Positions 22,248 through 33,646 of a DNA stretch of 64,000 bases are shown here, piece by piece (the stretch's first letter is position 1; each line of letters begins with the position of its first letter). The translations under genes were made by a program, and so were the position numbers. Below the pieces are notes generated by a model that saw only the letters and a program-made list of their open reading frames with translations, was not told the DNA's origin and did not search any database. This DNA is from Cellulosimicrobium cellulans. Its GTDB lineage: Bacteria; Actinomycetota; Actinomycetes; Actinomycetales; Cellulomonadaceae. The stretch is from assembly GCF_016907755.1 (NCBI RefSeq), contig NZ_JAFBCN010000001.1, positions 310,001-374,000 of the forward strand, written 5' to 3'.

Positions 22248-22793
22248 GAGGTACTCCAAGAACGTCGGGGAGGTACACCGTCTATGTCCTCGACGATGCA
22301 GTGACAGGTTCCGGTTGGAGCCTGTCGGTGGTTCAGGTGGTGCGCCGTGCGGTCGCCCGCTCGGGTCGTCGTCCAGGCACGCAGATCGAGTGGGCCATTG
22401 CTGGGGGCACCGGATCCTTGCAGGCAGCTCACGACGCGAGGCCTCGTGTCGAGTCTCCTCCACGCGGGCGCGCCAAGATCACCTGGAACGGCTGTCTGAC
22501 GTTACGCTGAGCGACCCCTCCAGGTCAAACCAGGACGGGTGAGGTGTGCCCCCGGACGCGCACCGCGGTGTCGAGTCGCCACCGGCAGCGGAACGGCGCT
22601 GAGACCATGCTCACCCTATAACCCACAGCCTGTGGACAACTATGTGGACGAGGGGTTCCCATGGCACGATCGACCTCAGCATCACCACACCCGTGACCTT
22701 TCTTCGTCGGCGCACCCCGCCCGGCCCGTCAGCGCGCGCTCGACGGTCGGCCCTGCGCGCCGACGCACACCCTCGACCTGTGAGGAACTGCCC
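22248..22793. promoter_or_regulatory. rpmH-dnaA divergent intergenic region
   Basis: 546 bases without a credible gene. Candidate -10 elements toward dnaA are TACGCT at 22503-22508 and CTATAA at 22615-22620; neither has a good -35. Two DnaA boxes (22631 and 22643) lie about 150 bases before dnaA, consistent with autoregulation. The rpmH promoter should lie in the left part but is not clear. Confidence 0.5.
22631..22651 (+). promoter_or_regulatory. DnaA-box doublet upstream of dnaA
   Basis: TGTGGACAA (22631-22639, perfect complement of TTGTCCACA) and TGTGGACGA (22643-22651, one mismatch), starting 12 bp apart. The same doublet recurs upstream of and inside gyrB. Probably mediates DnaA autoregulation. 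Confidence 0.75.
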
Positions 22794-24212
22794 GTGGCCA
22801 ACCCGGACGAGAACATCGCCGACGTCTGGGCGCAGACCCTGAGCATCCTCGAGGCGAGCCCGGACATCACGCCGCGGCAGATCGCGTTCATCCGGCTCGC
22901 CAAGCCCCTCGCGATCCTCGACGACACGGTCTTCATCGCGGTGCCGCACGAGCAGACCCGGACGTATCTCGAGACCCGCGTGCGCGACGAGCTCGTGACG
23001 GCGATGTCCTCCTGCCTCGGCCGCGACGTCCGCTTCGGCATCACGGTCGACCCGGAGCTCAGCTCGGACCCGGTCGTGGCACCTGCCTCTCGCCCCGCCG
23101 TGGAGCGACCGTACATCGAACCGGACGACGGTCTGCCCGACCTCCCGCCCCCTCCCCCGCCTCGCCCGCAGGCCGAGCCGAGCCGGCTCAACCCCAAGTA
23201 CGTCTTCGAGACGTTCGTCATCGGGTCGTCGAACAGGTTCGCGCACGCCGCGGCCGTCGCCGTCGCCGAGGCGCCTGCCAAGGCCTACAACCCCCTGTTC
23301 ATCTACGGGGACTCGGGCCTCGGCAAGACGCACCTGCTGCACGCGATCGGCCACTACGCGCACAACCTCTACCCCAACGTCCGCGTGCGCTACGTGAACT
23401 CCGAGGAGTTCACCAACGACTTCATCAACTCGATCGGCGAGGGCAAGGCCGGTGCGTTCCAGCGCCGCTACCGGGACGTCGACGTCCTCCTCATCGACGA
23501 CATCCAGTTCCTCCAGGGCAAGGAACAGACGATGGAGGAGTTCTTCCACACCTTCAACGCCCTCCACAACGCCAACAAGCAGGTCGTCATCACCTCGGAC
23601 CTGCCGCCCAAGCAGCTCAACGGGTTCGAGGACCGGCTCCGCTCGCGGTTCGAGTGGGGCCTCATCACCGACGTGCAGCCGCCGGACCTCGAGACGCGCA
23701 TCGCGATCCTCCGCAAGAAGGCGTCGAACGAGCGGCTCGCGGCCCCGGACGACGTCCTCTCCTACATCGGCTCTCGCATCTCGACGAACATCCGCGAGCT
23801 CGAGGGCGCGCTGATCCGCGTGACGGCCTTCGCGAACCTCAACCGCCAGCAGGTCGACCTCCCGCTCGCCGAGATCGTCCTCAAGGACCTCATCACCGAC
23901 GAGGACAGCGCAGAGATCACCCCCGCCGCGATCATCGCCCAGACGGCCGCGTACTTCGGCCTGACGATCGACGACCTCTGCGGGAGCTCGCGCTCGCGCG
24001 TCCTCGTCACCGCGCGGCAGATCGCCATGTACCTGTGCCGTGAGCTGACCGACCTCTCGCTGCCGAAGATCGGCCAGCAGTTCGGTGGCCGCGACCACAC
24101 GACGGTCATGCACGCGAACCGCAAGATCACGGAGCAGATGGCGGAGCGACGGTCCACCTACAACCAGGTCACCGAGCTGACGAGCAGGATCAAGCAGCAG
24201 CGCCGGGGCTGA
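22794..24212 (+). CDS. dnaA: Chromosomal replication initiator DnaA
   Basis: AAA+ ATPase that binds DnaA boxes and opens oriC. 472 residues: N-terminal interaction domain (1-85), a short Pro-rich domain II (about 90-130), an ATPase core with Walker A GDSGLGKTH at 172-180 and Walker B LLIDDIQFL near 231-239, and a C-terminal DNA-binding domain with GGRDHTTVMHANRKI. GTG 22794 is preceded by GAGGA eight bases upstream; the open frame before it is not conserved-looking. Domain II is short compared with Streptomyces DnaA. Confidence 0.98.
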   Translation: MANPDENIADVWAQTLSILEASPDITPRQIAFIRLAKPLAILDDTVFIAVPHEQTRTYLETRVRDELVTAMSSCLGRDVRFGITVDPELSSDPVVAPASRPAVERPYIEPDDGLPDLPPPPPPRPQAEPSRLNPKYVFETFVIGSSNRFAHAAAVAVAEAPAKAYNPLFIYGDSGLGKTHLLHAIGHYAHNLYPNVRVRYVNSEEFTNDFINSIGEGKAGAFQRRYRDVDVLLIDDIQFLQGKEQTMEEFFHTFNALHNANKQVVITSDLPPKQLNGFEDRLRSRFEWGLITDVQPPDLETRIAILRKKASNERLAAPDDVLSYIGSRISTNIRELEGALIRVTAFANLNRQQVDLPLAEIVLKDLITDEDSAEITPAAIIAQTAAYFGLTIDDLCGSSRSRVLVTARQIAMYLCRELTDLSLPKIGQQFGGRDHTTVMHANRKITEQMAERRSTYNQVTELTSRIKQQRRG

Positions 24213-25243
24213 GGCCCGTCGCCGTGGGGGCCCGTACCCACCGCCCGCCCATGGAGTCCGGTCCGGGCTGTCGACAGGCAGCCGTGTCGGGGACCACCCA
24301 TGACCAGGACCACCGTGCCGTGTCGTCCTCCGCACAGATCCACAGAGATGCCCACCGGGGTGCATCATCCTGTGGATACAGCTCGCCAGAGCGTCTCCGC
24401 ACAGTCCACGGCTCCTCCATCACCGTGTCGTACACAGCGTGTGGGTCGAGTTGTCCACAGTCATCCACAGGGCGCCTGTGAGTTGTGACATCCGCGTGAT
24501 CCAGGGATCGACGATCGACCACAGCGCTCGGCGGCGTTCCGCAACCCGCGGAGTGACGAGGGTTTTCCCCGGAATGGCTGTGGAAACGATGCACCGTGCA
24601 CAGTCTGTGGACGGCTCTCCGATGACACGGTTGTGCATGCGTCTGTGGATAACTGTGGACGACGGGCCCTCAGGTGTGGATGACATGGCACCCGTCGGTG
24701 GACGACGTGTGGGGACAGATCAGTTGCCCACAGGGCGTGCGACTTTCCCACAGCGGGACCACCAGCTCGTCCACACGCAGTTTCGCCCTCTGACCTGCGA
24801 GGACACCTGTTTTCCACGCATTCCACAACCCCTATGACGACGACGAAAGTGTTATCAAGGGGGAATTCCACACGCCTTCATCAGGCTCCGACGGCCGACG
24901 TGCGCGACCGCTCCGACCACCCTGCCCGACGGTCCCACCGGCGACCAGCGGATCGCCCGTCGGCACACCGCGGACGCTCGCGACGATGCCCTGACGACGT
25001 CGGTGCACAGGACTGTCCCCAGCGACGTCGTTCCAGTTCCTCCCGACCGCCTCCTCGCGTAGGGTTCATGCACGACACGTGTGCGCGGACCTGCGACCCG
25101 AGCTCCTCGCGTCCCCCGCCACGGGCCTTCCCTCGAGCGGTCAGGACGTCCTCAGCCCGACGACGAGCCGTGCGCCGAGGCGCAGCCGGACGGCACATGT
25201 GAAGATCGAGTCCGATCAGGACGTTGGGACGAGAGGGTGTGGG
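24213..25243. other. oriC: chromosomal replication origin
   Basis: 1.03 kb between dnaA and dnaN with a cluster of DnaA boxes at about 24336-24775. Perfect boxes: TTGTCCACA 24451-24459 and TGTGGATAA 24644-24652. One-mismatch boxes: 24371-24379, 24461-24469, 24654-24662, 24675-24683, 24724-24732 and 24767-24775. Weaker ones occur at 24336, 24579, 24606, 24698 and 24744. Boxes lie in both orientations. A relatively AT-richer stretch (about 24800-24875, with TTTTCC, TATGACG and GTTATCAAG) follows and is a candidate unwinding element. No gene is seen; the frames across it are not protein-like. Confidence 0.93.
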
Positions 25244-26374
25244 ATGAAGTTCCGGGTTGAGCGTGATGTCCTGGCCGACGCGGTGACCTGGACGGCGCGG
25301 ACCCTGCCGACCCGCCCGCCCGCCCCGGTGCTCGCCGGTGTACGGCTCGAGGCGGACGCGTCCGGGACGATCGGCCTGTCGAGCTTCGACTACGAGGTCT
25401 CGGCCCGCTCGGAGATCCCCGCCGAGGTGAGCGAGCCCGGCACGGTGCTCGTGTCCGGGCGTCTGCTCGCCGAGATCTCCCGTGCGCTCCCGGCGAAGCC
25501 GGTCGACGTCGTCCTCGAGGGCAACAAGGTCACGGTGACCTGCGGAGCGAGCCGCTTCACGCTGCTCACCATGCCTGTGGACGAGTACCCCGCCCTGCCC
25601 GCGATGCCCGAGCTCACGGGAACGGTCTCGGGCGACGAGCTGACGAACGCCGTCGCACAGGTCACGGTGGCGGCGAGCCGCGACGACACCCTTCCCCTGC
25701 TCACCGGGGTCCGGGTCGAGATCGAGGGCGAGAAGATCACGCTCCTCGCCACCGACCGCTACCGCCTCGCGCTCCGGGAGCTCACCTGGACGCCCGTCAC
25801 CCCCAGCTACTCGGCGGTGGCGCTCGTCCGGGCCCGCACGCTCAACGACGTGGCCAAGTCGCTCGGCAGCTCGGGCCTCGTGAACGTCGGCCTGAACACC
25901 GGCGCCGGGGTGGACCTCGTCGGCTTCGAGGCGGGCGGTCGCCACACGACGTCGCAGCTCGTCGACGGCGACTACCCCGCCGTGCGCCGGCTGTTCCCCG
26001 ACGAGACCCCGATCCACGCCGTCGTGCCGACGGCGCCGCTCATCGACGCCGCCAAGCGTGTGTCGCTCGTCGCGGAGCGCAACACCCCGATCCGGCTGTC
26101 GTTCACGGACGGGCAGGTCGTGCTCGACGCGGGCCAGGGCGACGACGCACAGGCGTCCGAGGCGCTGGAGGCCGTGCTCGTGGGCGAGGACATCTCGGTG
26201 GCCTTCAACCCGCAGTTCCTCCTCGACGGACTCGGGGCCCTCGGGACGGACTTCGTGCGCCTGAGCTTCACGCACCCGAACAAGCCCGTGGAGTTCACCG
26301 GGCAGGACTCGCTGGACGGCGAGGACTCGTCGCACTACCGCTACCTGCTCGTGCCGATCCGCTTCGCGGGCTGA
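25244..26374 (+). CDS. dnaN: DNA polymerase III beta subunit (sliding clamp)
   Basis: Ring-shaped clamp that tethers the replicative polymerase. 376 residues starting MKFRVERDVLADAVTWTAR, with the three-domain clamp pattern, and ending in YLLVPIRFAG, close to the YxxMPxR C-terminal signature. ATG 25244 is chosen because GAGAGGG lies six to seven bases upstream and the conserved N-terminus starts there. It follows oriC and precedes gnd by 62 bases. Confidence 0.98.
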   Translation: MKFRVERDVLADAVTWTARTLPTRPPAPVLAGVRLEADASGTIGLSSFDYEVSARSEIPAEVSEPGTVLVSGRLLAEISRALPAKPVDVVLEGNKVTVTCGASRFTLLTMPVDEYPALPAMPELTGTVSGDELTNAVAQVTVAASRDDTLPLLTGVRVEIEGEKITLLATDRYRLALRELTWTPVTPSYSAVALVRARTLNDVAKSLGSSGLVNVGLNTGAGVDLVGFEAGGRHTTSQLVDGDYPAVRRLFPDETPIHAVVPTAPLIDAAKRVSLVAERNTPIRLSFTDGQVVLDAGQGDDAQASEALEAVLVGEDISVAFNPQFLLDGLGALGTDFVRLSFTHPNKPVEFTGQDSLDGEDSSHYRYLLVPIRFAG

Positions 26375-26436
26375 CACCGCGAGGACCGCTCTCGCACCAC
26401 CGCCTCGACCGCATCACCGCACCCCGGAGGACTCGC

Positions 26437-27342
26437 ATGGTCACGCGCATCGGACTCGTCGGCCTGGGCAAGATGGGCAACAACATGCGGGCGCGCATCC
26501 GTGCCGCCGGCATCGAGGTGGTGGGCTACGACCCGCGGCCCGAGGTGTCGGACGTCGCGACCCTCGCCGACCTCGTCGCGGCCCTGCCCGACGACGGTCC
26601 GCGCATCGTGTGGGTCATGGTCCCCGCGGGAGAGCCGACCCGGGGCGTGGTGACGGAGCTCGGCGACCTGCTCGGCGCGGGCGACTTCGTCATCGAGGGC
26701 GGCAACTCGTACTACGCCGAGGACCAGGCGCGCGCCGCCGAGCTGAGCGAGAAGGGCGTGGGGTACCTCGACGTCGGCGTCTCGGGCGGGGTCTGGGGCC
26801 TCGAGAACGGCTACGGCCTCATGGTCGGCGGCGACCGCACGCACGTCGAGGCCGCCATGCCGGTCTTCGACGCCCTGCGCCCGGAGGGTCCCCGCGAGGA
26901 GGGCTTCGTCCACGCGGGCGAGGTCGGCGCGGGCCACTTCGCGAAGATGGTCCACAACGGCATCGAGTACGGGCTCATGCAGGCGTACGCGGAGGGCTAC
27001 GAGCTCCTCGCCGCGAAGAGCGAGCTCGTCACGGACGTGCACGGCACGATGAAGGCGTGGACGCGCGGCACGGTCGTGCGGTCCTGGCTCCTCGACCTCT
27101 TCGTCAAGGCGCTCGAGGAGGACCCGCAGCTCGCCGCGATCGACGACTGGGTCGACGACTCCGGCGAGGGCCGGTGGACCGTCGACGAGGCCATCGACAA
27201 CGCCGTGCCGCTGCCCGTCATCTCGGCCGCGCTGTTCGCGCGCTTCGCCTCGCGTCAGGAGCAGTCCCCGGCGCTCAAGGCCGTCGCGGCGCTGCGTCAG
27301 CAGTTCGGCGGGCACGCGGTGAAGGCCGCCGACCCGGCCTGA
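26437..27342 (+). CDS. gnd: 6-phosphogluconate dehydrogenase (short, YqeC/GndA type)
   Basis: Oxidative decarboxylation of 6-phosphogluconate in the pentose phosphate pathway. 301 residues: the short bacterial form, against about 470 for the classical enzyme. N-terminal dinucleotide fold [34 protein letters not shown] and the catalytic [21 protein letters not shown] lies before the ATG. The location between dnaN and recF is as in Streptomyces; mycobacteria lack it there. Cofactor choice (NAD or NADP) is not settled by sequence. Confidence 0.94.
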
Positions 27343-27379
27343 CCGGTCGGCCGACCCTCACCCGGCACGTCCTCCCGCG

Positions 27380-28687
27380 ATGTACGTCTCCCACCTGTCC
27401 CTCGTCGACTTCCGCTCGTACGAGTCCGTCGACGTCGAGCTCGTCCCGGGCGTGAATGCCCTCGTCGGGCCGAACGGTCAGGGCAAGACGAACCTCGTCG
27501 AGGCGATCGGGTACGTGGCGACGCTCGCGAGCCACCGGGTCGCCGGGGACGCGGCGCTCGTCCGGGCCGGCGCCACGCGTGCCGTCGTCCGGACCCGGGT
27601 CGTCCGGGGCGACCGCGCGAGCACCGTCGAGCTGGAAATCGCCTCCGGCCGCGCGAACCGGGCCCGGATCAACCGGTCCCCCGCGAAGCGGCCGCGCGAC
27701 GTCCTCGGCATCGTGCGCACCGTCCTCTTCGCCCCGGAGGACCTCGCCCTGGTCAAGGGCGACCCGGACGGTCGCCGCCGGTTCCTCGACCAGCTCGCCG
27801 TCCTCCTGGTCCCGCGCGTCGCCGCGCTCCTCGCGGACTACGAGCGGGTGCTGCGCCAGCGGGGGGCGCTCCTCAAGTCCGCGACCGCGCTCCGGGGTCG
27901 CCGTGCGACCCGCCGCACCAGGGCCGCGGAGCCACCACCCGACGACGACGCGGCCGAAGGCACGTCGTCCCCGCTGGCGACGCTCGAGGTCTGGGACGCA
28001 CGGCTCGCGAGCCTCGGTGCCGAGATCACGGCCCTGCGTCTCCAGCTCGTCGCGGCGCTCACGCCGTACGTCGCGGAGGCGTACGAGCAGGTCAGCGCCG
28101 GGCAGGGCGAGGCACAGATCGCGTACCGCTCGTCGGTCGACGAGGCGCTCGACCCGGACGGGGCCGCTGACGGTGTCCCCCCGCGGGGCGAGCCGGGCAC
28201 CGACGGCGACGGCCCGACGTCGGGCCTCCCCGACGCGCCGACGCTCGAGAAGCGCATGCTGGATGCCATGCGGGCGGTGCGGGCGAAGGAGATCGAGCGC
28301 GGGGTGAACCTCGTCGGACCCCACCGCGACGACGTCGTCCTCACCCTGGGCGGCCTGCCGGCGAAGGGGTACGCGAGCCACGGCGAGTCGTGGTCGTTCG
28401 CCCTCGCCCTGCGCCTCGCGTCCTACCGGCTGCTCAAGGACGGGGCCCCGGCGGGGCTCGACTCCCTCCTGTGGGCGGACCAGTGGGGTCCGGACGGCGA
28501 GCCCGTGCTCGTGCTCGACGACGTGTTCGCCGAGCTCGACGTCCGGCGCCGCGAGCGGCTGGCCGAGCTCGTCGCGGGCGCGGGCCAGGTCATCATCACC
28601 GCCGCCGTCCCCGACGACGTCCCCGCGCTCCTGGACGGGGCGCGTTTCGCCGTCCATGACGGGACGGTGAGCCGTGTCGAGGACTGA
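27380..28687 (+). CDS. recF: DNA replication and repair protein RecF
   Basis: SMC-like ATPase that helps load RecA at gaps. 435 residues, longer than the usual 360-390. Walker [10 protein letters not shown] at 30-38; Walker [12 protein letters not shown] near the C-terminus; ABC-type signature around [14 protein letters not shown]. Two low-complexity inserts (a [18 protein letters not shown] stretch and a [12 protein letters not shown] stretch) explain the extra length. No Shine-Dalgarno sequence is seen before the ATG; it follows gnd by 37 bases. Its 3' end overlaps the DUF721 gene by 14 bases. Confidence 0.95.
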
Positions 28688-29336
28688 GGGTGGCGCGTTC
28701 TCGTCCCACCACGGCGACGACCGCACCGAGCACGATGCGGCCCAGCCGTCCGCCCCCGGTGACCCTTCGCGGCGTGGCTCCACGGACGGGGAGAGCGCGG
28801 CGCCTCGGGCGACGGGGCTGCCCGTGGGGGACGTCGTGGAGCTGACGCCGCCGGCGGAGGTGGCGCGGCAGGCGCTCAACCGGGCGAAGGCGGCGGCGCG
28901 GGCGAAGGGGCTGCGGCCGGGGCAGGAGCCGCGCCGCCGGATCCTGGCCGACCCCCCGACGTCGGGCGCCCGACCGGGCGGCCGCGACCCGCAGCTCCTG
29001 GGCGACGTCGTCGCGCGGCTGCTGCGGGAGCGCGACTGGGTCGCCGACGTGTCGGTGGGTGGCGTCGTCGGGCGGTGGCGCGAGGTGGTCGGCGACCAGG
29101 TGGCGGACCACTGCGAGCCGGAGACGTTCGAGGACAAGGTCCTCGTGGTGCGGGCGGACTCGACGGCGTGGGCGACGCAGGTGCGCCTGCTCGCACCACA
29201 GCTCCTCGAGCGTCTCGCGCGCGAGGTCGGCGAGGGCGTCGTGGAGACGGTGACGGTCCTCGGGCCGGCAGGCCCGAGCTTCCGGCGCGGCAAGAAGTCG
29301 GTCCGCGGACCCGGCCCGCGCGACACCTGGGGCTGA
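28674..29336 (+). CDS. DUF721 protein, DciA-like helicase-loading factor candidate
   Basis: 220 residues. The C-terminal half carries the DUF721 pattern: [22 protein letters not shown], then [31 protein letters not shown]. The N-terminal half is polar and Arg/Pro-rich. It corresponds to Rv0004 of M. tuberculosis, placed in the DciA family that helps load the replicative helicase. The GTG start lies within the recF end, so translation is probably coupled. The conserved next gene is gyrB, but here a leftward gene intervenes. Confidence 0.88.
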
Positions 29337-29402
29337 GTGCCCGACGGCGCGGCCTCGCGCCGTCCTGAGGGCCGCGCCCGGGCGCGGCGTGCTCGGACAC
29401 GA

Positions 29403-29437
29403 CGAGGCCCGCCGTGACCGGGGCACGGCGGGCCTCG
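29403..29437. terminator. Bidirectional terminator hairpin
   Basis: A perfect 14-bp stem (29403-29416 with 29424-29437) with a seven-base loop between the convergent DUF721 and LAxTG genes. Confidence 0.8.
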
Positions 29438-29469
29438 CGGGTGGTGACGGTCAGGTCACCACGTCGGGG

Positions 29470-31011
29470 TCAGGACTGCACGCGGCGGCGCAGCCAGAAC
29501 ACCAGGACACCGCCGCCGACGAGCAGGGCGGCGAAGGCCGCGGCGCCCGCGACGGTGGCGCCAGTCGTGGCGAGCGCGGGGCCGCCGGGCTCGGCGGGAC
29601 CGGCGACGTTCTCGACCGCGACCGGGGCGACGGGCGGGTTCGCGCAGGCGCTGGTCGCGGGCGGGTAGGTGACGACCGTCGAGTACGACGGGTTCACCTC
29701 GAAGAGGACCTCCACGCCGTCACGCGTCCACGCGAAGTTGCCCTCGGTCTCCGTGTACGAGCCGTCCTCGTTGCGGACGAACCCGGGCCACTGCTGGGGC
29801 TCCGCGGCCGAGGCGCCGGGCCACAGGAGCGTGCCGCTGAGCGGCTGGCCGGTCACGACGTGGTCCTCGCCGCCGTTGGGGTGCAGGAACGTGATGGTGA
29901 GCGGGTTCTCCTCGTCGACGGTGACGCCCTCGGGCAGCGCGACATCGTAGCCGAGGTAGGGGACGTCGCCCTGGCAGACCGCCTCGATCGCGCCCGGGAC
30001 GAGCGCGCACGCCTCCTCCGCGGGAAGCAGGTCCGCCACCGGGAACAGGGCGCTGCGTCCGTCCTCGGCGACGACGTAGCCGAGCTGCGCCGTCTCCTCG
30101 GAGAACTCGACGGTGGCGTTCTTCGGCTCGGCGACGACGCCCTCGGCCGTCGCGGTGTAGCGGAACTGCTCGGACTCGGCCGGGACGTTCTCCCCGGTCA
30201 GCTCGGTGCCGCACACCTCGACGGCGGCGGGGACCTCCGGCGTCGCGGGGGCGACCACCTCCTCGTCGACCGGCCCGGGGGTGTCGCACGCGCCCTCGGG
30301 GAAGAGGTTGGCGAGGTCCTGGTGGTCCCACGAGATCAGCGTGCCGTCGGGGAACTCGCCGAGGTGCTTGCCGTCGGGCGAGTAGCGGATGTCCGTCGGG
30401 AGCTCGTCGAGCCCGCCGGGCAGGTCCACGAGGTCCTGCTGCACGGCCCACGCGGTGCACAGGTCCTCGGTGGTGACGTCGGGGACGATGGTGCGCGCGA
30501 CGGCGCGCACCTCCTCCAGGTCGAGAGGCGCGACGAGCCAGGTCTTGTCCCACGGCTTCTCGGGCAGGGCGAGCTCGTCGCTCGTGACGAGCTTCTGCGG
30601 GCCGGAGTTCTCCCAGGCGGCGGGGCTCTTCGGGTCGAGCTTGGGGTAGACGTACACCCCGACCTGGACGGGTGCGTCGGCGGGCTGGCACGGCTTGGTG
30701 GTGCCCTCCCAGGCCGCGTCGTAGCGGTCGTGGTCGGAGGCGTCGACGGCGACGCTCCACGTGTGGGCCACGGTCGGGTCGAGCTGATACGTCTTCGAGA
30801 ACCGGCCGTCGAAGTTGCGCGGCTCGAGCGTCTTCCCGTCGACGACGACGGTGAGCCCGTTCCCGGAGGCGTACGCCCAGAGATCGACCTTGAGGCTCTG
30901 GCAGTCGGCGACGGGCTCGCCGCTGTGGGCGGAGGCAGGTGCCGCGGTGGCCACGAGCAGGCCGCCGAGTGCGAGCACTGTCGCTGCAGCGCTCGCGAGG
31001 AGTCTCTTCAC
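29470..31011 (-). CDS. Secreted LAxTG-anchored surface protein (sortase substrate)
   Basis: 513 residues. A signal peptide (KRLLASAAATVLALGGLLVA...ASA) is followed by an extracellular region with repeated Cys residues. The C-terminus is a sorting signal: LATTG at 480-484, a hydrophobic helix and the basic tail RRRVQS. LAxTG is the motif of class E sortases, and a SrtE gene lies at 42244. The body has no domain I recognise. GTG 31011 is chosen because the signal peptide starts there. It is transcribed leftward inside an otherwise conserved rightward block. Confidence 0.85.
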   Translation of the reverse strand: MKRLLASAAATVLALGGLLVATAAPASAHSGEPVADCQSLKVDLWAYASGNGLTVVVDGKTLEPRNFDGRFSKTYQLDPTVAHTWSVAVDASDHDRYDAAWEGTTKPCQPADAPVQVGVYVYPKLDPKSPAAWENSGPQKLVTSDELALPEKPWDKTWLVAPLDLEEVRAVARTIVPDVTTEDLCTAWAVQQDLVDLPGGLDELPTDIRYSPDGKHLGEFPDGTLISWDHQDLANLFPEGACDTPGPVDEEVVAPATPEVPAAVEVCGTELTGENVPAESEQFRYTATAEGVVAEPKNATVEFSEETAQLGYVVAEDGRSALFPVADLLPAEEACALVPGAIEAVCQGDVPYLGYDVALPEGVTVDEENPLTITFLHPNGGEDHVVTGQPLSGTLLWPGASAAEPQQWPGFVRNEDGSYTETEGNFAWTRDGVEVLFEVNPSYSTVVTYPPATSACANPPVAPVAVENVAGPAEPGGPALATTGATVAGAAAFAALLVGGGVLVFWLRRRVQS

Positions 31012-31104
31012 GAGGTGAGGGTCCCTTCGGGGTGAGGCCGCCCGCACGCGGATCACTCCTGCGCGGACGACGCGCGAATCATGATTGTGTGTGGTATTAG
31101 ACCA

Positions 31105-31120
31105 CTTTCCACGTGAAATG
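31105..31120. other. Degenerate parS-like site
   Basis: CTTTCCACGTGAAATG keeps the CCACGTGAAA core but matches the consensus at only 11 of 16 positions. It may be a weak ParB site or chance. Confidence 0.3.
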
Positions 31121-31218
31121 CCGATTCCCGACTTGTCACCGGAGGGAGCGTTCCCACGACCTGGACGGCGAGCCCGGCGTCCGGGCTGCGGCGCGCGTGC
31201 CGAGGCGTCTCTCCGAGC

Positions 31219-31252
31219 GGTGGACAACACCTGTGGACAACTTTGTGGAGGA
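31219..31252 (+). promoter_or_regulatory. DnaA boxes upstream of gyrB
   Basis: GGTGGACAA (31219-31227), perfect TGTGGACAA (31232-31240) and TGTGGAGGA (31244-31252). The last two start 12 bp apart and nearly repeat the doublet upstream of dnaA. Confidence 0.7.
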
Positions 31253-31549
31253 GTCTCGACGACGGGGCGCGGATCGCGTCGTGATAGCCCGGGACGTCGT
31301 CCCCAGGAGGGCCACAATCCGCGGAATTCGGCTCGTGGCGGGTAGACTGGGGAGGTCATTCCGGGTCTGTTCACCACCCGTGCGCGCAGCCCTTCCGAGG
31401 AGGCGCGGCCAGCCGTCCACGGCCGACCGTCCGCCGTCGCGGAGGAGCCGACGCCGGTCGTGGTGCGGGCCCGGAACCCTTGAGCAGCGGCGACCGCTTC
31501 CGCACGAACGCGGGCGCTGCGTGCACGACGACGAGGAGCAGTCCTGCCC

Positions 31550-33646
31550 GTGGCAGACCACACCGACACCGCCATCTCCGACCCGACGGCGTCCGCGGAG
31601 GCGGCACCCTCGGCGGGCGGCGGCTACGACGCGAGCAACATCACCGTCCTGGAGGGCCTCGAGGCGGTCCGCAAGCGTCCGGGCATGTACATCGGCTCGA
31701 CCGGCGAGCGGGGCCTCCACCACCTTGTGTACGAGATTGTGGATAACTCTGTGGACGAGGCCCTCGCCGGGCACGCGGACACGATCGACGTGACGCTCCT
31801 GGCCGACGGCGGCGTCCGCGTCGTCGACAACGGCCGCGGCATCCCCGTCGCGATCCACCCGACCGAGGGGAAGCCGACGCTCGAGGTCGTCATGACGATC
31901 CTCCACGCGGGCGGCAAGTTCGGCGGCGGCGGGTACGCCGTCTCCGGCGGGCTGCACGGCGTCGGCATGTCGGTCGTCAACGCGCTGTCGACGCGCATGG
32001 TGTCCGAGGTCCGTCGCGACGGCTACTCGTGGCGCCAGGAGTTCACCGAGGGTGGCAACCCGGTGGCCCCCGTCGAACGGCTCGAGCCGTCGGACGAGAC
32101 GGGGACGACGCAGACCTTCTGGGCCGACCCCGGGATCTTCGAGACCACCGAGTACGACTTCGAGACCCTGCGGGCGCGCTTCCAGCAGATGGCGTTCCTC
32201 AACAAGGGGCTGCGCATCACGCTGACGGACGAGCGTCCCGCCCACCTCGACACGGGCGACGAGGTCACGGGGGGCGACGGGACGACCGACGCGGACGGCG
32301 TCTCCGAGGCGGACGGCGCGACGTCGGGGGCCTCCACCCCGGCCCGCACCGTCTCGTACAAGTACGACGGCGGTCTCGTGGACTACGTCAAGCACCTCAA
32401 CTCGGCCAAGAAGGTCGAGCTCGTCCACCCCGACGTCATCGACTTCGAGTCGGAGGACACCGAGAAGCGCATCTCCGTCGAGATCGCGATGCAGTGGACC
32501 AGCTCGTACTCCGAGTCCGTCCACACGTACGCGAACACGATCTCCACGACGGAGGGCGGCACGCACGAGGAGGGCTTCCGTGCGGCGATGACCTCGCTGG
32601 TCAACCGGTACGCGCGCGACAAGGGCATCCTCAAGGAGAAGGACGACAACCTCACGGGCGACGACATCCGCGAGGGTCTGACCGCCGTCGTCTCCGTGAA
32701 GCTCGGCGAGCCCCAGTTCGAGGGCCAGACCAAGACGAAGCTCGGCAACACCGAGGCGAAGACGTTCGTCCAGCGCGTCGTCCACGAGCAGCTCACGGAC
32801 TGGTTCGACTCGCACCCGAACGAGGGCCGCGACGTGATCCGCAAGGCGATCCAGGCGTCCCAGGCGCGGCTCGCCGCCCGCAAGGCGCGCGAGGCGACGC
32901 GACGCAAGGGTCTGCTGGAGTCGGGCGGCATGCCCGGCAAGCTGCGGGACTGCCAGTCGAACCGCGCCGAGGAGTGCGAGATCTTCATCGTGGAGGGTGA
33001 CTCCGCGGGCGGCTCCGCCGTCCGTGGTCGCAACCCGCGGACGCAGGCGATCCTCCCGATCCGCGGCAAGATCCTCAACGTCGAGCGCGCGCGCCTCGAC
33101 CGGGCCCTGTCCAACCAGGAGGTCCAGTCGATCATCACCGCGTTCGGCACGGGGATCGGCGAGGACTTCGACCTCACCAAGCTGCGGTACCACAAGATCG
33201 TCCTCATGGCCGACGCGGACGTCGACGGCCAGCACATCGCGACGCTCCTGCTCACGCTGCTCTTCCGGTACATGCGCCCCCTCATCGAGAACGGGCACGT
33301 CTACCTCGCGCAGCCGCCGCTGTACCGGCTCAAGTGGTCGAACGCCCCGCACGACTACGTCTACTCGGACAAGGAGCGCGACGCGTTCCTCGCATCTGGG
33401 CAGGCCGCGGGCAAGCGGATCCCCAAGGAGAACGGGATCCAGCGCTACAAGGGTCTGGGCGAGATGGACTACTCGGAGCTGTGGGACACGACCATGGACC
33501 CCGAGCACCGCACGCTCAACCAGGTCACCCTGGACGACGCGGCCGCCGCGGACGAGATCTTCTCCGTCCTCATGGGCGAGGACGTCGAGTCCCGCCGCAG
33601 CTTCATCCAGCGGAACGCGAAGGACGTGCGGTTCCTTGACATCTGA
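31550..33646 (+). CDS. gyrB: DNA gyrase subunit B
   Basis: ATPase subunit of the enzyme that supercoils DNA; target of aminocoumarins. 698 residues: GHKL ATPase with [10 protein letters not shown] (62-71) and [19 protein letters not shown], transducer domain, TOPRIM with [15 protein letters not shown] and DADVDGQHI, and C-terminal [15 protein letters not shown]. An acidic, Gly/Asp-rich insert after [10 protein letters not shown] is common in actinobacteria. GTG start with GAGGAG about eleven bases upstream. Codons 63-67 (ATT GTG GAT AAC TCT) are AT-rich for this genome and form DnaA boxes. Confidence 0.98.
31738..31758 (+). promoter_or_regulatory. DnaA-box doublet inside gyrB coding sequence
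   Basis: TGTGGATAA (31738-31746, perfect) and TGTGGACGA (31750-31758) start 12 bp apart within codons for I-V-D-N-S-V-D-E. Three neighbouring codons use T at the third position (ATT, GAT, TCT), which is rare here, as if the DNA word were kept. Confidence 0.6.

Follow-up and report, generated by a model that had tools for sequence, protein, structure and literature searches.

Paired DnaA boxes upstream of dnaA, gyrB and dnaB and within gyrB codons in Cellulosimicrobium cellulans as candidate DnaA operators

Introduction

The 9-mer TTGTCCACA is listed as the high-affinity DnaA box of Streptomyces coelicolor and Mycobacterium tuberculosis (PMC4285127, Table 1), and autoregulation of dnaA by DnaA has been reported for Streptomyces and mycobacteria (PMC8203912). 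Beyond the actinobacteria, predicted DnaA boxes are described upstream of Caulobacter dnaB and dnaQ, both members of the DnaA regulon (PMC8203912, citing Hottes 2005), and transcription of Caulobacter gyrB coincides with that of dnaA, dnaN and dnaX at the time of replication (PMC1175088). In Borrelia burgdorferi, DnaA binds 5' of dnaA-gyrB, dnaX, dnaE and holA, including binding to the gyrB-dnaA intergenic region in an electrophoretic mobility shift assay (PMC9879097). Here we analyse a 64,000-nucleotide stretch of the Cellulosimicrobium cellulans genome (hereafter the window) that carries dnaA, dnaN and gyrB and in which the same DnaA-box doublet is found upstream of dnaA, upstream of gyrB and inside gyrB. 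For a DnaA-box doublet inside gyrB, or for this set of sites in actinobacteria, no published report was found in a search judged by titles, abstract openings and some passages, with most subscription journals outside its coverage. A search on clusters of DnaA boxes in Streptomyces likewise gave no useful result. We present evidence that the doublets are rare in the genome and conserved in the genus, and that the gyrB copy is constrained as DNA.

Results

Four places in the genome carry the doublet

The window corresponds to C1:310001-374000 of a genome of 4,788,922 bases in one contig. Three nearly identical words, TGTGGACAACTATGTGGACG at 22631, TGTGGACAACTTTGTGGAGG at 31232 and TGTGGATAACTCTGTGGACG at 31738, each consist of two TGTGGAYAA-type units (DnaA boxes) in the same orientation with starts 12 bp apart (Table 1), at the positions and in the arrangement first reported in the preliminary description. 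Each doublet includes one box that matches the actinobacterial 9-mer consensus (TTGTCCACA/TTATCCACA) perfectly. In gyrB, which starts at 31550, the word is written by codons 63-69 as ATT GTG GAT AAC TCT GTG GAC. The window as a whole is rich in such boxes: at up to one mismatch from TTRTCCACA it has 20 sites where 4.77 are expected, and 0 of 100 shuffles reached 20.

Genome-wide, the exact doublet TGTGGAYAACTNTGTGGA occurs three times, always at the places named above. Allowing up to two mismatches adds one site, at C1:296412, and the reversed pattern gives none. The preliminary description had proposed such a scan. To its three words at least one more has to be added, which lies beyond the window by about 14 kb, in front of dnaB. 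A generalised pair, KGTGGAYAANNNKGTGGAYRA, gave the same picture: with 0-1 mismatch it was found only upstream of dnaB (C1:296412), upstream of dnaA, upstream of gyrB and inside gyrB. At two mismatches there were six extra rows, five of them scattered and one a third unit immediately preceding the gyrB doublet (reversed control, 2). The number of single boxes is roughly what base composition predicts: perfect TTRTCCACA boxes number 14 genome-wide, against a rough estimate of about 9 and a reversed control of 6. The 9.1 kb from dnaA to gyrB hold five of the 14 (window positions 22631 to 31746). Of eight other perfect boxes, seven were checked through a single adjacent gene apiece (cation efflux, GNAT, YgjP-like, a weak kinase match, HerA-like, phosphorylase and Fic), and none of these genes has an evident role in replication initiation.

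The gyrB codons of the doublet are constrained as DNA

We aligned 16 gyrBs of the genus (a 17th, L157, was dropped for its broken frame), which gave 671 columns with at least 14 rows. GC content at third codon positions (GC3) of these genes is 0.94-0.98, and their median pairwise third-position identity is 0.80. Against this background, codon 63 (ATT or GTT) is the sole column of the 671 that ends in A or T in all 16 genes, and codon 67 is TCT in 15. The window gyrB has 18 T-ending codons. Codon 63 is T-ending in 16/16; the TCT of the doublet and a CTT near the 3' end are so in 15, a GGT in 14, and a CGT and the CTT of a possible third repeat unit in 13 each. The remaining 12 are T-ending in at most 10 of the 16, one of them being the GAT of the doublet, where GAC equally gives a box. 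Among the doublet-bearing gyrBs of the family (n = 50), the first codon is GTT in 30 and ATT in 20, and the fifth is TCT in 45 and GCT in 5. The T is thus kept through Val/Ile and Ser/Ala replacements, which supports selection at the DNA level.

The chance of obtaining this codon combination from the gene's own usage is p = 2.2e-5 for the window gyrB; over 52 gyrBs (50 from the family and 2 others) the median is 3.9e-5 and the largest value 1.4e-3. At other x-V-D sites of those gyrBs, xxT GTG GAY is read in just 4 of 139. The strongest control comes from a paralogue, a second gyrB/parE-type gene that encodes E(I/V)IDN(S/A)VDE, nearly the peptide of gyrB, with GC-ending codons. The second-box string xxT GTG GAY GAR is present in 0/62 of these second genes vs 33/60 gyrBs of the same genomes. 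The two kinds were told apart by the third codon alone, and three copies of the second kind were verified as type IIA topoisomerase B subunits; for partial second-gene sequences NCBIfam leaves parE vs gyrB unsettled. Chance or ordinary gyrB codon usage is rejected as an explanation on the strength of the codon 63 and 67 columns, the codon-usage p values, the paralogue and the counts of T-ending codons. Selection on the gyrB codons of the doublet as DNA is well supported by the codon alignment, the T kept through residue swaps, the paralogue control and the recurrence in distant genera described below. The preliminary description had suggested such selection and had argued that chance was weakened because the peptide could be coded in GC-rich form.

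The four sites are conserved in the genus

The genus sample comprised 17 genomes, which were scanned with KGTGGAYAANNNKGTGGANRA at up to one mismatch, with counts tallied from the match list. Of 79 rows, 68 fell at the four places and 11 elsewhere, a number equal to that of the reversed control (11); these 11 are scattered, one of them (in G110) close to dnaA. The gyrB-internal pair is present in 17/17 genomes, G112 and G122 having TCG and not TCT, so that their second box lacks its T. The pair upstream of dnaA was found in 16/17, the exception (G123) being a genome whose retrieved contig lacks that end. The pairs upstream of gyrB and upstream of dnaB were each found in 16/17 as well, the exception being G110 in both cases; in G110 just one perfect box precedes gyrB. 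Doublets upstream of dnaA, gyrB and dnaB in 16, 16 and 16 of 17 genomes agree with the boxes, kept in relatives, that a DnaA regulon would have at its putative promoters, the dnaB region being common to a divergent MATE gene. In a 13-genome alignment of the genus, the doublet upstream of dnaA sits in a long conserved island, and that upstream of gyrB forms a short island amid diverged DNA, about 90 bp 5' of a conserved block with the -10-like TAGACT.

A match to the DnaB N-terminal helicase domain (Pfam PF00772, 6e-33) identifies the product of a minus-strand gene that starts at 296163, and the site at C1:296412 is about 250 bp 5' of this gene; dnaB was found in 17/17 genus genomes. A box with at most one mismatch is present upstream of dnaB in 17/17 genus genomes and 29/30 other family loci (46/47 in total). 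In these other family loci 12 bp is the leading spacing (19 pairs), followed by 23 bp (7 pairs). Two loci without the MATE gene (L289 and L290) keep boxes with one mismatch, L289 ending at a contig edge. In the genome under study, DnaA-like boxes form a cluster between dnaB and the divergent MATE-family gene (G000:C1:296357-296460; locus L195, about 1958-2060). With the fourth site, what might pass for coincidence in the vicinity of oriC becomes a candidate small regulon.

The gyrB doublet is lineage-specific and recurrent

We classified gyrB in 107 family genomes, a sample that was not random, as doublet-bearing genera were chosen in part. Both boxes are present in 50, the first only in 9 and neither in 48. 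The gyrB site is therefore a lineage-specific element and not a universal Micrococcales feature. The preliminary description had held that related genomes with free use of GC-ending codons at gyrB 63-67 and no boxes upstream would refute its proposal, and this is half the case at family level. The second box without the first was seen in 0 of 193 gyrB rows (some genomes represented twice). In a GyrB tree built with FastTree from 188 rows of the family and other Micrococcales (some genomes supplying two rows), there are at least 19 changes of the first box and at least 15 of the second. Over 15 well-supported and mutually independent pairs, the second box follows the first in 9 and runs against it in 0, with no difference in 6 (p 0.004). 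For the possible third repeat, CTT GTG TAC GAG, covariation on the tree was not significant (about 2 of 15 pairs the same way, 0.2 the other way). A correlated third repeat was set aside on these tree pairs despite a strong Fisher association, and it remains suggestive only.

At order level, the full Ser-type doublet was found in 9/396 genomes, two of the nine outside the family, and at class level the Ser/Ala pattern in 12/394, of which 11 lie in a GyrB-type reading frame (the exception being G637, L300). The doublet is present in all five sampled genomes of genus g138 and in all three of genus g133, the latter showing both TCT and GCT forms. The nine gyrBs from outside the family in the class sample have GC3 of 0.85-0.95. 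Without selection on the DNA sequence itself, such recurrence at the same codons in unrelated lineages is difficult to account for. In genus g14 (G162-G165), gyrB keeps GCT but GTC replaces GTG, and the site looks like a decayed doublet. In g138, a 12-bp box pair is found beside PadR-like and inositol-phosphate-synthase-like genes, about 31-43 kb from gyrB (L306, L313), and the scan gave one more match on a small contig.

Upstream of gyrB, the spacing of the pair was determined in 81 family loci with enough upstream DNA. It is 12 bp in 40 loci, 13 bp in 18, 20 bp in 3 and 11 bp in 1; pairs at 9, 10 or 14-19 bp were found in none of the 81. A perfect upstream box is present in 17/17 genus members.

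Genes and regions around the sites

The features of the window are collected in Table 1. dnaA is intact. The presumed oriC also has perfect units, at 24451 and 24644, and its box pairs in the genus are spaced by 10 bp (28 pairs) rather than 12 bp (2 pairs; 16 genomes), with additional 21- and 31-bp repeats. The gyrB-internal site, with two boxes and at most three units, does not resemble an oriC, in which numerous DnaA boxes and an unwinding element share a single intergenic region; the oriC is presumed to lie between dnaA and dnaN. A lone DnaA-like box inside dnaN at 25576 was also considered as a conserved intragenic site and rejected, as CCT GTG GAC is found in just 6/16 recovered genus dnaNs. 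The position of the gyrB promoter and start at TAGACT is inferred from sequence conservation. Near the gyrB stop (33634-33642), a CTT codon present in 15/16 genus members creates TTGACA (33636-33641); a gyrA promoter here, without a clear -10 after it, would be a guess. Adjoining the gyrB-upstream doublet, a divergent gene on the minus strand (29470-31575, coding probably from 31012) encodes what looks, from its translation, like a secreted, cell-wall-anchored protein, and its regulatory region could be in common with that doublet.

Table 1. Doublets, single boxes, genes and other features of the window
Feature	Position	Strand	Remarks
DnaA-box doublet upstream of dnaA, TGTGGACAA + TGTGGACGA	22631..22651	-	143-163 bp 5' of dnaA GTG (22794)
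dnaA	22794..24212	+	NCBIfam TIGR00362, 523 bits
dnaA-dnaN intergenic region, presumed oriC with DnaA boxes	24213..25243	.	Spacings genus-wide mainly 10/21/31 bp, rarely 12
dnaN	25244..26374	+	NCBIfam TIGR00663
Additional 1-mismatch DnaA box, GGTGGACAA	31219..31227	-	13 bp upstream of gyrB-upstream doublet; in part of genus
DnaA-box doublet upstream of gyrB, perfect TGTGGACAA + weak TGTGGAGGA	31232..31252	-	~90 bp 5' of -10-like TAGACT
Conserved promoter-like block of gyrB	31318..31367	+	-10-like TAGACT 31343-31348; kept across 13 of 17 genus members aligned
gyrB	31550..33646	+	NCBIfam NF004189 1028.6 bits, TIGR01059 927.8 bits, both above cut-off
Possible third weak 12-bp repeat unit, TGTGTACGA, from CTT GTG TAC GAG	31726..31734	-	Precedes intragenic doublet
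DnaA-box doublet inside gyrB, codons 63-70, perfect TGTGGATAA + TGTGGACGA	31738..31758	-	

Discussion

We lean towards the view that the doublets are cooperative DnaA operators that couple the expression of dnaA, gyrB and probably dnaB to the level of DnaA. DnaA is the putative binder, as the consensus equals known actinobacterial DnaA boxes. A head-to-tail pair of one strong and one weaker box at a 12-bp pitch could act as a small cooperative operator; DnaA domain I is described as forming weak dimers across Actinomycetes (PMC13270200), and such dimers would suit a strong-plus-weak pair. On the doublet upstream of dnaA, DnaA would exert autoregulation. Relative to the start predicted from TAGACT, the two gyrB doublets lie near -123 and +383; they would bracket the promoter-like block and may modulate gyrB transcription, possibly via a loop or a roadblock, and the pair upstream of dnaB would place the helicase under like control. 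Taken together, the operators would make the supply of initiator, helicase and gyrase depend on the DnaA level. Selection of the gyrB codons as DNA is possible because the conserved peptide (I/V)VDN(S/A)VDE happens to permit a 12-bp-spaced doublet. The preliminary description had proposed that DnaA could coordinate its own synthesis with gyrase supply: the idea of coordination gains from the doublet upstream of dnaB, whereas binding by DnaA and regulation are predictions from the sequence. More tentatively still, an exonic DnaA operator may have arisen repeatedly in high-GC actinomycetes from the conserved codons for the ATP site of gyrB; together with an upstream operator it would bracket the gyrB promoter and, with the operators of dnaA and dnaB, which have the same 12-bp architecture, form a minimal DnaA regulon, one feedback loop for initiator, helicase and supercoiling supply.

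Several observations weigh against the operator reading. The regulatory effect, its sign and any looping are hypotheses drawn from sequence features. Since 48 of 107 family genomes do without either gyrB box, the site is dispensable. Perfect gyrB-upstream boxes were found in only 21/64 other family loci and in 6/80 named relatives, some of this family and some of others. Across the family, no significant association links the upstream gyrB doublet with the intragenic one (Fisher p 0.36), which weakens the bracketing or loop idea, and each gyrB site may work alone. Some other family genera show 12-bp pairs in their apparent oriC, so that the pitch is not exclusive to promoters and no strict promoter mark. 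Upstream of dnaB in the genus, same-strand spacings of 12 bp (9 pairs) and 32 bp (9 pairs) are tied, and the divergent MATE-family gene stands beside dnaB in 45/47 loci. Since this gene has the region in common, dnaB may not be the target and the assignment of the doublet to it is unproven. In the distant genus g138, a dnaB-type site was not seen in the doublet scan, and further matches lie near dnaA and beside the PadR-like and inositol-phosphate-synthase-like genes (names read from translations).

The main rival of the operator reading is DnaA titration or handling, in which the gyrB and dnaB doublets would form an origin-proximal sink, resembling datA or a titration region, whose early duplication alters free DnaA, and the location at replication genes would reflect nearness to oriC. 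We regard this as rather unlikely. Titration has been linked to a densely boxed region close to the origin in Escherichia coli (PMC12371093). It would account for the concentration of five of the 14 perfect genomic boxes between dnaA and gyrB, for an intragenic site, which needs no promoter under titration, and for upstream and intragenic gyrB sites that go unassociated. Four doublets per genome would provide little capacity, however, and titration leaves unexplained why doublets with 0-1 mismatch in the genome are sited at dnaA, gyrB and dnaB and nowhere else, or why the doublet upstream of gyrB precedes a conserved promoter-like block in otherwise diverged DNA. A datA/DARS-type handling locus is non-coding and has several boxes together with sites for partner proteins; the gyrB-internal site at 31738 has two boxes in coding DNA.

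Two further alternatives appear improbable. The codons in gyrB could be kept by selection at the codon or RNA level, or by chance and common descent, with no protein bound. gyrB is highly conserved and the genus closely related, and four T-ending codons of the window gyrB other than those of the doublet are T-ending in at least 13 of 16 genes (CTT 15, GGT 14, CGT 13 and CTT 13). Such an account has to contend with the other 12 of the 18, which vary, with the paralogue and its GC-ending codons, with a T that persists across I/V and S/A changes, with the recurrence in genera of other families at high GC3, and with the same 12-bp pair in non-coding DNA at three other places. Slightly less probable again is that the doublets are operators of another DNA-binding protein with a DnaA-box-like motif. 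The 10-bp spacing that prevails in the genus oriC would fit such a protein, as would the circumstance that DnaA is named from the boxes themselves; the unit, however, equals the actinobacterial DnaA box listed in PMC4285127, perfect units occur in the presumed oriC, and the same pair lies at dnaA, a gene for which DnaA autoregulation is on record in Streptomyces and mycobacteria (PMC8203912).

If DnaA operators are indeed what the doublets are, they would provide a direct DNA-level link between the replication initiator and the supply of gyrase, both of which are thought to control origin opening together. They would also be a clear case of a regulatory site for the initiator embedded in the coding sequence of an essential enzyme, with repeated gains over evolution.

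The described systems share single aspects with this arrangement. The Caulobacter DnaA regulon has dnaB with upstream boxes in common with it, but belongs to another phylum, and no site in the gyrB coding sequence is mentioned in the passages of PMC8203912 that treat it. Cell-cycle control of Caulobacter gyrB is similar in that gyrB is timed with replication genes; there, as far as the account in PMC1175088 goes, control involves core-promoter sequences and an unidentified factor, and not DnaA boxes. Borrelia burgdorferi differs in having one shared divergent intergenic region, with no intragenic doublet mentioned in the relevant parts of PMC9879097. In E. coli, datA, DARS and the titration regions near the origin likewise have DnaA boxes outside oriC, but datA and DARS are described as non-coding multi-box loci (PMC12371093), in contrast to single doublets here, one of them in coding DNA. 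Autoregulation at the dnaA promoter, as outlined for E. coli, Bacillus subtilis, Streptomyces and mycobacteria (PMC8203912), involves boxes upstream of dnaA, and the doublet at 22631 fits it; the present arrangement differs in that its head-to-tail doublet keeps a fixed 12-bp pitch and recurs at gyrB and dnaB. Judging from these sources and the literature search outlined in the Introduction, control of dnaA and dnaB by DnaA is known from elsewhere, and the gyrB-internal doublet and this set of sites in actinobacteria are apparently new.

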